Part shown: one piece after another, positions 3,372-6,632 of the stretch | Layout: each line of letters starts with the position of its first letter | Numbering within the stretch: position 1 is the first letter of the stretch | Source of the DNA: Pelosinus fermentans JBW45 | GTDB taxonomy: Bacteria > Bacillota > Negativicutes > DSM-13327 | Length of the DNA stretch: 64,000 nt | NCBI RefSeq assembly: GCF_000271665.2 | Contig: NZ_CP010978.1 | Span: 5,104,501-5,168,500 of the forward strand | Reading direction: 5' to 3' | The notes under the pieces: generated by a model | The model's input: only the letters and a program-made list of their open reading frames with translations | What the model was told of the DNA's origin: nothing | Database searches by the model: none | Made by a program: the position numbers and the translations under genes

Positions 3372-3411
3372 TAACAGAGTCTATAACCACGTCATTCCAC
3401 AAAAATAAAAA

Positions 3412-3451
3412 AACCAGAAGTCTTCACTGCAAGCAGCTACAACTTCTGGTA
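3412..3451 (-). terminator. Intrinsic terminator, copy 2 of the repeated 40-bp hairpin
   Basis: CCAGAAGT (3414-3421) pairs with ACTTCTGG (3442-3449), followed on the minus strand by TTTTTTATTTTT. It lies 13 bases past the 3' end of tRNA-Ser(CGA) and would end the tRNA-tadA-tRNA transcript. It matches 1461-1500 in 39 of 40 bases. Confidence 0.75.
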
Positions 3452-3463
3452 TGATTGACTTCA

Positions 3464-3554
3464 TGGCGGAGAGGGTGGGATTCGAACCCACGAGACAGTT
3501 TCCCGCCTACTCGATTTCGAGTCGAGCGCCTTCGACCAGCTCAGCCACCTCTCC
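3464..3554 (-). tRNA. tRNA-Ser (anticodon CGA)
   Basis: Folds as a class II tRNA with long variable arm: acceptor GGAGAGG / CCTCTCC, anticodon loop CTCGAAA with anticodon CGA, T-loop GTTCGAATC, discriminator G and an encoded CCA. It is the last gene of a minus-strand unit after tadA. Confidence 0.95.
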
Positions 3555-3583
3555 GTGACCTGATCTACTTCAATGCTCATGTC

Positions 3584-4075
3584 TCAGGTATCTATGTGAT
3601 GCTTCTTATTGTTTTTTCGTCGTTGTTTAAAAAAATCTTTCATGATTTGCGCACATTCATCTCTACGTATTCCCGATGTAACCACCATGGAATGATTTAA
3701 TGCATCATTTTGCGCTATATTAAAAATCGATTCAATTGCCCCTGCTTTTACATCAGCACTGCCGTAAACCAAGCGGTCAATACGACTCATGACCAAAGCA
3801 CCAGCACACATAGGGCAAGGTTCTATCGTAACATACAATGTAAGTCCAGTTAAACGCCATCGTCCAAGCTTTTGACAAGCTTCCCGAATAGCAATCATTT
3901 CAGCATGAGCCGTCGCATCATGCCAACTTTCCCGCATATTGTGTCCTGCAGCCACTACCTGACCATCCAGAACAAGCACAGCTCCAATTGGTACTTCACC
4001 AATCGCATAAGCCTTTTGCGCTTCCTCTAATGCTAATCCCATATAATAATGATCATCCAATATCCGGTTCACCAC
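3584..4075 (-). CDS. tadA: tRNA-specific adenosine deaminase TadA
   Basis: Converts adenosine 34 to inosine in tRNA-Arg(ACG), so that it can read CGU, CGC and CGA codons. The zinc deaminase signature is complete: HAEMIAI (zinc His and catalytic Glu, about residue 58) and PCPMCAGAL (two zinc Cys, about 88-92). 163 residues is typical. The GTG at 4075 lies only 11 bases after the CCA end of tRNA-Arg(CCT) and lacks a clear Shine-Dalgarno site, so after tRNA processing the message would be nearly leaderless; an ATG at 4042 (HYYMGLALEEA) is an alternative but would cut conserved N-terminal sequence. It sits between tRNA genes, including its own substrate. Confidence 0.95.
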   Translation of the reverse strand: MVNRILDDHYYMGLALEEAQKAYAIGEVPIGAVLVLDGQVVAAGHNMRESWHDATAHAEMIAIREACQKLGRWRLTGLTLYVTIEPCPMCAGALVMSRIDRLVYGSADVKAGAIESIFNIAQNDALNHSMVVTSGIRRDECAQIMKDFFKQRRKNNKKHHIDT

Positions 4076-4086
4076 ACAAAATACAA

Positions 4087-4163
4087 TGGTGCGCCCGGGA
4101 GGACTCGAACCACCGGCACACGGTTTAGGAAACCGTTGCTCTATCCGCCTGAGCTACGGGCGC
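4087..4163 (-). tRNA. tRNA-Arg (anticodon CCT)
   Basis: Acceptor GCGCCCG / CGGGCGC, anticodon arm ACGGTTTCCTAAACCGT with anticodon CCT, T-loop GTTCGAGTC, discriminator A and encoded CCA. Lies between tRNA-Arg(ACG) and tadA on the same strand. Confidence 0.95.
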
Positions 4164-4185
4164 AAAATATAGTTAGCAACAAAAA

Positions 4186-4262
4186 TGGTGACCCCGGCAG
4201 GATTCGAACCTGCGACCTCTTGATTCGTAGTCAAGCGCTCTATCCAGCTGGGCTACGGAGTC
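4186..4262 (-). tRNA. tRNA-Arg (anticodon ACG)
   Basis: Acceptor GACTCCG / CGGGGTC with one G-U pair, anticodon arm CTTGACTACGAATCAAG with anticodon ACG, T-loop GTTCGAATC, discriminator A and encoded CCA. This is the established substrate of TadA, whose gene lies two genes downstream in the same direction. Confidence 0.95.
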
Positions 4263-4300
4263 ATTCCTTCAATGGAACCCTTGTCCCGTCGACAAAAAAT

Positions 4301-4330
4301 ATCTTACCATAGTTCTATAGGTAAAGTCAA
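4301..4330 (-). promoter_or_regulatory. Sigma-A-like promoter for the tRNA-tadA unit
   Basis: On the minus strand TTGACT (4330-4325) and TAAGAT (4306-4301) are separated by 18 bases, placing the start about 35 bases before tRNA-Arg(ACG). It abuts the DnaA-box cluster. Confidence 0.55.
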
Positions 4331-4356
4331 GAGTTTTTATTATTTCGTTTTCTAAT

Positions 4357-4502
4357 TGTGGATAAAAGGATGTGGATAACTTTATCCACATCCTTTTATC
4401 CACATGTTCATTCCTCGTGAAGCTATAAAATTCCCTCATTTTGAAGTAAAAATCAGAATATGTCCCCATAGTTATCCACATTTGTTATCCTTTTGTGCAT
4501 AA
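4357..4502. other. Cluster of six perfect DnaA boxes with a 23-bp palindrome
   Basis: Six matches to TTATNCACA occur in 146 bases: 4357-4365 and 4371-4379 (minus), 4382-4390, 4396-4404 and 4472-4480 (plus), and 4494-4502 (minus, TTATGCACA). The first four form a perfect inverted repeat, arms 4357-4379 and 4382-4404 with a 2-base centre. A second inverted repeat (TCCCCATAGTTAT 4463-4475 / ATAACTATGGGGA 4499-4511) brackets the last two. No dnaA, dnaN, rpmH or parAB gene is in the window, so a DnaA-titrating or DnaA-regulated site is more likely than oriC, though the origin could be near. Confidence 0.6.
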
Positions 4503-4543
4503 CTATGGGGATAACTATTGAAATTAAGGGGAAATCAAGATAA

Positions 4544-4575
4544 AACAAGGCTTATACGAAAGTATAGGCCTTGTT
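4544..4575 (-). terminator. Intrinsic terminator of ppk1
   Basis: AACAAGGC (4544-4551) pairs with GCCTTGTT (4568-4575) and inner TATAC/GTATA closes on a GAAA-type loop; on the minus strand it is followed by TTTTATC. It begins 2 bases past the ppk1 stop codon. Confidence 0.75.
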
Positions 4576-4577
4576 CT

Positions 4578-6632
4578 TTAAAAATCTGCACCACCAGCTC
4601 GCTCTTGTGCTTCTTGATATAATTTTTGCTGACTATTAACGATCTTACCTCGGCGATATACCCGTCGATAGGTGCCATCACTTTTCATCATATAAGCCTT
4701 ACGATTATCTTTCAGCATAATATGCAAAATATTTTTTATTCGTTCTAGAATTTCTGGATTATCAATGGGAAATAATAATTCGATCCTCTCACTTAAGTTA
4801 CGATTCATCCAGTCCGCACTGGATAAATAGATTTTTTCCTTACCACCATTTGCAAAATATAAAATACGATGATGCTCCAAAAAGCGCCCTACAATGCTTC
4901 GTACCTTAATATTCTGACTAACATGTTCAAGCCCTGGTTTTAGAGCACAAATTCCACGAATAATAAGATCAATTTTAACCCCTTTGCTAGAAGCCTCATA
5001 CAATTTAAGAATAATATCCTTATCCAGTAGAGAATTCATTTTAGCAATGATATGACCGCTTTTTCCCTCTTGAGCCAAAGCAATTTCCCGATCAATCAGC
5101 TCTTTTATTTTCTCTCGCAAACCAACGGGGGCAACCACCAGCTTTTTCCACGATGGTGGTTCCGAATAACCCAATAACATATTAAAAAAGTCAGAAGCAT
5201 CCGCTCCTACTTTTTCATTGGCAGTAAACAGACTCATATCAGAGTATATACGGGCTGTAATGTCATTATAGTTCCCCGTCCCCATATGCACATATCGCTT
5301 AATACGAGCTTCTTCCTGCCGAATGATTAATGCCATTTTACCATGGACCTTGAGACCCAACAATCCATAAATTACATGACATCCAGATTCTTCTAATTTT
5401 CTGGCCCATAGAATATTGTTTTCCTCATCAAAACGAGCTCGAACTTCTACTACAACCGTAACTTGTTTCCCATTTTCCGCGGCTTGAGCCAAAGCACGGA
5501 CAATGGAAGAATTGCCACTCACTCTATATAAAGTTTGCTTAATCGCTAACACCTTAGGATCAACTGCTGCCTGACGAATAAAGTTTACTACGGGCATAAA
5601 GGATTCGTAAGGATGATGTAGTAAAATATCTTTCTCTCGAATTACATCAAACAAATCCTCTGCATCTTTTAATCCTATGGGAATCTGTGGAATGATGGGC
5701 TCATAGCGCAGGTCATCAAAACCTTGAAGATCCATCACTTTCATAAAACAAGATATATCAATAGGACCCGTAACTTCATACAAATCCTGTTCATCCATCT
5801 TAAATATATCTAGCAAGAAATTTTTTAAAAAAGATTTGTTTGTTTTGGTCATTTCCAAACGTACTGCTTCGCCCCGTTTACGCTGACGCAGAGATTTTTC
5901 TACCTCGGCCAGCAGATCTTCGGCACCTTCACCATCAATTAACAAATCCGAATTGCGCGTAATGCTAAAGGGTACAATATCCTTAATCGTGTAGCCGCAA
6001 AATAACTCAGAACAATGTTTTTTTATAATGTCTTCTAATAATACAAATTGTTTGCCAACACTTTGGTCAGGCACTTCAATAATTCGTGGCAGAGCACTTG
6101 GAACGGGAAGAATTGCTGTCTGCAGCTCCTCTTTTCCCTTACTTAGCAGCACTGCCAGATTTAAACTCCGATTGGCTAATAGAGGAAAAGGGTGACTGGC
6201 ATTTACTGCTAATGGCGTAAGCAACGGATAGATCGTGTTATAAAAATGCTCTTCTACCCACTGTCGTCCGCTAACGGCTAAACTCTCAACATCACTTACA
6301 TAAATATCATGATTCTGCATGGCACCAAGAATCTTCTTTAGATACCAATACTGCAGCCGTACCATCTCCCGCACCGCTTCATCAATTAATTGAAGTTGCT
6401 GGGCTGCATTAAATCCTGCAGGGTCTCTCTTACCAATACCGCTCTCCACTTGCTGTTTCAGTCCAGCAACACGAATCATAAAAAACTCATCCAAATTAGA
6501 ACTGGCAATCGCCACAAATTTCAATCGTTCCAGCAAAGGTTTTTCAGGGTCATTCGCTTCTTCTAATACCCGATGATTAAACTTCAGCCAGCTTAATTCC
6601 CTATTTAGGAAATTCTCTTTTTTATCAAACAT
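4578..6632 (-). CDS. ppk1: Polyphosphate kinase 1
   Basis: Reversibly polymerises the terminal phosphate of ATP into inorganic polyphosphate, usually at the membrane. The four-domain PPK1 layout is visible: N-terminal helical domain beginning FLNRELSWLKFNHRVLEEA, head domain, and two PLD-like catalytic domains with KVHGKMALI (the autophosphorylated His) and LEHHRILYFANGG (the second catalytic His), plus HMGTGNYN and SADWMNRN. 684 residues is normal. Divergent from ppx, which degrades the product; a Pho-box-like repeat lies in the 355-bp gap. Confidence 0.97.
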   Translation of the reverse strand: MFDKKENFLNRELSWLKFNHRVLEEANDPEKPLLERLKFVAIASSNLDEFFMIRVAGLKQQVESGIGKRDPAGFNAAQQLQLIDEAVREMVRLQYWYLKKILGAMQNHDIYVSDVESLAVSGRQWVEEHFYNTIYPLLTPLAVNASHPFPLLANRSLNLAVLLSKGKEELQTAILPVPSALPRIIEVPDQSVGKQFVLLEDIIKKHCSELFCGYTIKDIVPFSITRNSDLLIDGEGAEDLLAEVEKSLRQRKRGEAVRLEMTKTNKSFLKNFLLDIFKMDEQDLYEVTGPIDISCFMKVMDLQGFDDLRYEPIIPQIPIGLKDAEDLFDVIREKDILLHHPYESFMPVVNFIRQAAVDPKVLAIKQTLYRVSGNSSIVRALAQAAENGKQVTVVVEVRARFDEENNILWARKLEESGCHVIYGLLGLKVHGKMALIIRQEEARIKRYVHMGTGNYNDITARIYSDMSLFTANEKVGADASDFFNMLLGYSEPPSWKKLVVAPVGLREKIKELIDREIALAQEGKSGHIIAKMNSLLDKDIILKLYEASSKGVKIDLIIRGICALKPGLEHVSQNIKVRSIVGRFLEHHRILYFANGGKEKIYLSSADWMNRNLSERIELLFPIDNPEILERIKNILHIMLKDNRKAYMMKSDGTYRRVYRRGKIVNSQQKLYQEAQERAGGADF

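Follow-up and report, generated by a model that had tools for sequence, protein, structure and literature searches.

Candidate DnaA-control element at the ppk/tRNA-Arg locus of Pelosinus fermentans and its patterned three-box module in the Negativicutes

Introduction

DnaA is the initiator protein of chromosome copying. DnaA control sites outside oriC have been worked out in Escherichia coli and are known by deletion in Bacillus subtilis, where Okumura et al. reportedly described oriC-proximal DnaA-box clusters in 2012. Excerpts of the published work report that deletion of six B. subtilis clusters outside oriC resulted in early initiation, and that the effect was strong only if all six were deleted (PMC5295017, PMC13220808). 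A review, as excerpted, assigns these clusters no large role in initiation control (PMC5295017). Excerpts on the E. coli sites state that boxes I and II of the DARS cores are opposed (PMC8682772), that datA requires same-direction boxes and IHF (PMC5742627), and that datA is controlled by read-through from a tRNA operon (PMC10950094).

The present study concerns a cluster of DnaA boxes flanked by ppk and a tRNA-Arg(ACG)-tRNA-Arg(CCT)-tadA unit on a chromosome of the genus Pelosinus, that of P. fermentans JBW45. The stretch analysed, referred to as the window, is 64 kb long and corresponds to positions 5104501-5168500 of a single 5,380,816-bp contig. Among the papers listed from an open-access library, none concerns such an element in Negativicutes.

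Results

DnaA boxes of the Pelosinus locus

Six exact DnaA boxes, matching TTATNCACA, are contained in 146 bp (window 4357-4502; Table 1), an arrangement expected about 6e-10 times per genome under a Poisson model with the genome-wide box density. Across the 64-kb window 10 matches were counted where 3.28 would be expected; none of 100 shuffles reached 10, and the whole genome (5.38 Mb) holds 240 against 109 for a reversed control pattern. All six boxes of the first-pass annotation were recovered at their positions, as was its four-box palindrome, in which two 23-bp arms match perfectly around a 2-bp centre, with a folding energy of -35.8 kcal/mol as a single RNA strand. The second dyad that it had drawn around two boxes was located at 4460-4516; it is imperfect (-26.4 kcal/mol when folded as RNA) and includes an extra, seventh box with one mismatch, which completes the conserved three-box module described below.

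Table 1. Features of the ppk/tRNA-Arg locus in window coordinates
Feature	Position	Strand	Remarks
tadA, tRNA adenosine(34) deaminase	3584..4075	-	
tRNA-Arg(CCT)	4087..4163	-	
tRNA-Arg(ACG)	4186..4262	-	
Promoter-like site, tRNA-Arg/tadA unit	4301..4330	-	TTGACT starts at 4330, TAAGAT ends at 4301
Exact TTATNCACA boxes	4357-4365, 4371-4379, 4382-4390, 4396-4404, 4472-4480, 4494-4502	-, -, +, +, +, -	Pattern match
Block I, four-box palindrome	4357..4404		Boxes D to G; spacing 14, 11, 14 bp
Box D	4396..4404	+	76 bp from C; orientation as C
Core module, block II	4472..4514	-	Boxes A, B and inverted C; class-wide geometry
Box C	4480-4472		Inverted relative to A and B
Box B TTATGCACA	4502-4494	-	C follows at 22 bp
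Box A TTATCCCCA	4514-4506	-	B follows at 12 bp; one mismatch
Probable ppk terminator	4538..4575	-	Hairpin then T-rich DNA; -17.8 kcal/mol, z -5.75
ppk, polyphosphate kinase 1	4578..6632	-	

Exact-box pairs with gaps of at most 30 bp occur in this genome near dnaA, at the ppk/tRNA-Arg cluster and at three lesser places. The latter comprise three boxes preceding an MFS transporter gene (contig 5293395-5293436), two inverted boxes between dnaB and purA (5328551-5328571) and two boxes at 4881786-4881825. Among the first 100 of the 240 boxes listed, those on the minus strand predominate up to about 1.9-2.0 Mb and all beyond it are on the plus strand; the strand bias seems to follow the replication arm.

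The first-pass annotation had also placed the promoter of the tRNA-tadA transcript beside the cluster. A promoter-like site directed away from the element was indeed found 26 bp from the nearest box and is retained in relatives, with displacement in G006 and G008, but the promoter scan returned one site against 1.8 expected in shuffles and gives no support by itself. The hairpin behind ppk is absent from the terminator-scan output. A search for an RNA element at 3400-4700 was negative: only the three tRNAs reached their gathering scores, and weaker matches to the palindrome remained far below their own.

Conservation within the family

Boxes were found at the ppk/tRNA-Arg locus in eight of the nine other genomes of the family; no cluster was found in the ninth, G009, which is 85% complete. 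In eight family genomes, including that of JBW45, 83% of box columns are invariant vs 14% of the columns between boxes. Loss of the boxes with retention of the palindrome, which had been named as an outcome that would speak against a role of DnaA, is thus the opposite of what was observed. The four-box palindrome (≤3 mismatches) is nearly private to the genus: of the 380 class genomes, only five carry it and all five are from Pelosinus, which rules it out as the conserved unit. Its 5-bp spacers (4366-4370 and 4391-4395) vary between Pelosinus species in three states and yet stay complementary, through either selection for the hairpin or conversion between the arms; two other genomes of the family, G001 and G002, lack this symmetry. 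A scan of named genomes with three of the palindrome boxes returned 21 stretches, of which four carry ppk of the Pelosinus family, four contain dnaA (L040, L045, L047, L049) and the remainder include Chryseobacterium.

The three-box module in the Negativicutes

The most conserved part of the locus is the second dyad together with the one-mismatch box, read as box, 12 bp, box, 22 bp, inverted box. This 12/22 module (≤3 mismatches) was detected in 102 genomes among the 341 of Negativicutes searched, representing 49 of 95 genera, vs a single match for the reversed control, and in 23 of 34 families by our own counting from the module-search results. At this threshold 239 genomes were without it, and it was not found in any searched genome of families f3, f5, f17, f19, f24, f29, f30 and f32-f35. 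The 12/14 spacing of E. coli DARS was matched in 30 of 341 genomes, all in families f2 and f20 (one match for the reversed control), and was not found in the JBW45 genome at ≤3 mismatches. Among the 30 fetched 12/14 loci, three adjoin ppk (L281, L285 and L286, of genus g3) and one adjoins dnaA (L298); the ppk place can therefore carry either a 12/22 or a 12/14 module.

In total 121 loci of the 12/22 module were fetched, mostly one match per genome, with neighbours judged within about 1.5 kb; L309-L311 were fetched and left out of the analysis, and the orientation of L105 was chosen from two equally good ones. A rule-based classification placed 60 loci, each from a different genome, in a class with ppk, a small conserved ORF or tRNA-Arg where expected. 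L124 (f8), which is cut by a contig end and shares its upstream gene with L125, was moved by hand to this class, so that 61 of the 102 module genomes carry the module in the same place, i.e., after ppk or the small ORF and/or before tRNA-Arg. Another eight loci (L127, L171, L175, L220, L222, L223, L227 and L228) form a second conserved place, beside genes for a PLP-dependent decarboxylase (Orn/DAP/Arg type) and/or a DegS-type histidine kinase and with no tRNA; an extra box often occurs there at 67-68 bp. The other 53 loci lie elsewhere by rule (49 in f20, two in f1, L124 in f8 and one in f13) and are mostly without a D box at the stepped distances reported below, so that more than the three boxes is needed to define the element. 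Some 12/22-type groups in f20 are kept within single genera, namely L142-L156 (g44, preceding a permease-like gene), L160-L169 (g50) and L182-L188 (g65), all without a stepped box D. The small conserved ORF (about 95 aa; L210 and 27 others by clustering) usually stands right before the module, often after ppk; it had no match in Pfam or NCBIfam and was not seen ahead of the module in Pelosinus.

Downstream of the 60 same-place loci, tRNA-Arg(ACG) lies within 600 bp on the same strand in 34, at 117-467 bp from the module; eight have only tRNA-Arg(CCT) and 18 have neither. In family f25, ppk is upstream of the module in 10/10 loci and the downstream tRNA is absent from the fetched DNA in nine of them. 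When the best tRNA-Arg(ACG) match in each of 30 genomes was chosen independently of boxes, 25 exact boxes were counted within 500 bp upstream, in five loci, and none downstream; the other 25 loci were box-free upstream, a count in which three of the 30 loci have less than 500 bp of upstream sequence and the tRNA is multicopy. One of the five boxed loci, L253 (f17), was scored module-negative; by eye it has the same small ORF upstream, and it retains the 22-bp spacing of B and C as well as a box at 78 bp, and its A-B interval is 10 bp. An exclusive tie of the cluster to ppk, tadA or the tRNA is ruled out, each being missing at some loci.

Stepped distances of box D

Box D was outside the search pattern and was found at stepped distances from box C in 28 genera. 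At each locus the first exact box located between 45 and 85 bp from C was used, and distances were expressed as genus medians. This gave values for 28 of 36 genera; the remaining eight have no exact box in that range, and four of them have a one-mismatch box at 44, 54, 62-63 and 79 bp. The medians fall at 52-56 bp (seven genera), 63-67 bp (five) and 74-79 bp (16; single loci 73-79) with none between, i.e., in steps of about one helical turn. The maximum Rayleigh R over periods of 10.0-11.5 was 0.75 (p = 5e-5 vs a uniform distribution over 50-80; p = 1e-4 with each distinct value used once), p values that are optimistic given the relatedness of the genera and a distance range of our own choosing. 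At the second place, D lies at 53-55 bp in 7/7 genera. The natural reading of the stepping is that DnaA on C and DnaA on D would face each other over bent DNA.

Chromosomal position

The position relative to dnaA was determined from the whole contig. The dnaA gene is located at 504-2084 with its own DnaA-box cluster at 122-434, and the ppk/tRNA-Arg cluster is 272 kb away (5.1% of the contig), on the side of dnaA away from dnaN, if dnaN is assumed to follow dnaA. GC skew shows no change of sign around 4.4 kb of the window. The site neither adjoins dnaA nor sits at a skew switch as an oriC does. Both sites share one long contig in 12 genomes from six families, and there the distance from the module to dnaA amounts to 2.0-11.3% of the contig (for G003 under the assumption of a circular contig). 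The module lies on the side of dnaA opposite dnaN in 11 of them and on the dnaN side in G076. For the second place, two genomes were mapped, with values of 7.9 and 8.5%. Under uniform placement, the chance that six families all fall within 11.3% is about 1e-4, a figure to be read with the inheritance of gene order in mind; the position near oriC may itself be inherited gene order.

Discussion

The observed boxes, spacing, helical stepping, position and conservation present a known kind of site in a clearly patterned new variant, whose binding and replication effect are predicted from sequence. Of the three interpretations first proposed for the cluster, a titration site, a DnaA-regulated promoter and an arm of the origin, only part has stood. 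A titration or control site of the datA, DARS or B. subtilis kind fits best, with the class-wide spacing, the proximity to oriC and the persistence without the tRNA. The element is probably a chromosomal DnaA-binding control element near oriC. On the best reading it would work in the manner of the DnaA-box clusters of B. subtilis or of datA/DARS in E. coli, and is neither an origin nor primarily a switch for the tRNA genes.

The proposal of an origin arm is contradicted, and ruled out, by the 272 kb to dnaA and its box cluster and by the unchanged sign of the GC skew. The same observations make a second or former replication origin extremely improbable, in spite of the dense boxes and of a 12-bp tandem pair that recurs in the dnaA-side cluster (278 and 290); moreover, tblastn found no dnaA in the approximately 1.5-kb flanks of the 121 module loci. 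It is also improbable, to a lesser degree, that the site is a transcription block, insulator or terminator at which hairpins or bound DnaA stop read-through between ppk and the tRNA unit. The palindrome is the sole terminator-like match in the region, where it was found on the plus strand in three overlapping forms vs 0.5 expected, and its arms change symmetrically between species, but it is genus-restricted whereas the module is class-wide, the spacer symmetry fails in G001 and G002, and a separate hairpin already follows ppk.

More weight is due to a promoter at which upstream DnaA would tune transcription of the tRNA-Arg/tadA unit and so couple translation capacity to replication, an unlikely explanation all the same. 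Boxes that stop 26 bp short of the promoter-like site, the downstream tRNA-Arg(ACG) of 34/60 same-place loci and the exclusively upstream boxes of the independently chosen tRNA loci speak for it; it is weakened by the 117-467 bp range of module-tRNA distances, the missing tRNA in 9/10 f25 loci with the module, the eight loci of the tRNA-less second place and the 25/30 tRNA loci with no exact box up to 500 bp upstream. A DnaA control element is preferred over a promoter switch because the internal spacing is fixed while the distance to the tRNA is loose, and because the module survives without the tRNA and lies close to oriC.

For such a control element we infer DnaA binding, looping and an effect on initiation. 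DnaA would occupy boxes A and B (12-bp interval) in head-to-tail order and would also load on the inverted box C. DnaA on box D, and in Pelosinus on the palindrome boxes too, would join on the same helix face, and the C-D interval would consequently bend or loop. Because it is close to oriC, the site would be duplicated soon after initiation, and the doubled site would lower free or active DnaA and guard against early re-initiation. The action could be mere DnaA titration, faster ATP hydrolysis as at datA, or ADP release as at DARS. That the exact spacing recurs over much of a bacterial class suggests that the element may help to set when chromosome copying begins. A bolder proposal, possible but doubtful, is that the element represents a third class of DnaA-activity site, distinct from both datA and DARS and already present in the ancestor of Negativicutes. 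In this view DnaA would form a helically phased nucleoprotein loop on a 12/22 core or (in one genus, at the same place) a DARS-like 12/14 core, and the element would alter the nucleotide state of DnaA in bacteria for which no DARS is known. With one fixed-layout element in most searched families of a class, the generality of DnaA titration and activity switching becomes testable by comparison, and the spacing rules and helical steps may indicate which DnaA-DnaA contacts are selected.

Comparison with known DnaA-control sites

The locus shares with the B. subtilis clusters, as excerpts describe them, groups of several DnaA boxes outside yet near oriC; it differs in that one place with a fixed, stepped layout can be followed, by our own count, through 23 of 34 families, a layout of which those excerpts describe no counterpart in B. 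subtilis. Like E. coli datA in the excerpted accounts, it is oriC-proximal, adjoins tRNA genes and has distant boxes with DNA that would bend between them (PMC5742627, PMC10950094). The essential boxes of datA share one direction there, whereas A and B of the Negativicutes element oppose C and D; datA also stands downstream of its tRNA genes and the present element upstream of tRNA-Arg. The read-through at datA is a parallel only, as the tRNA promoter-like site is directed outward from the element, which is itself preceded by the hairpin behind ppk. With DARS1 and DARS2 (K-12 sequence) the module shares three boxes, a tandem pair 12 bp apart and an opposed one. The last interval is 14 bp in DARS and 22 bp in the Negativicutes module, which thus departs from the DARS core. 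The g3 loci beside ppk (L281, L285 and L286) fit the 12/14 pattern at ≤3 mismatches, and the 12/22 and 12/14 forms may link the element to DARS.
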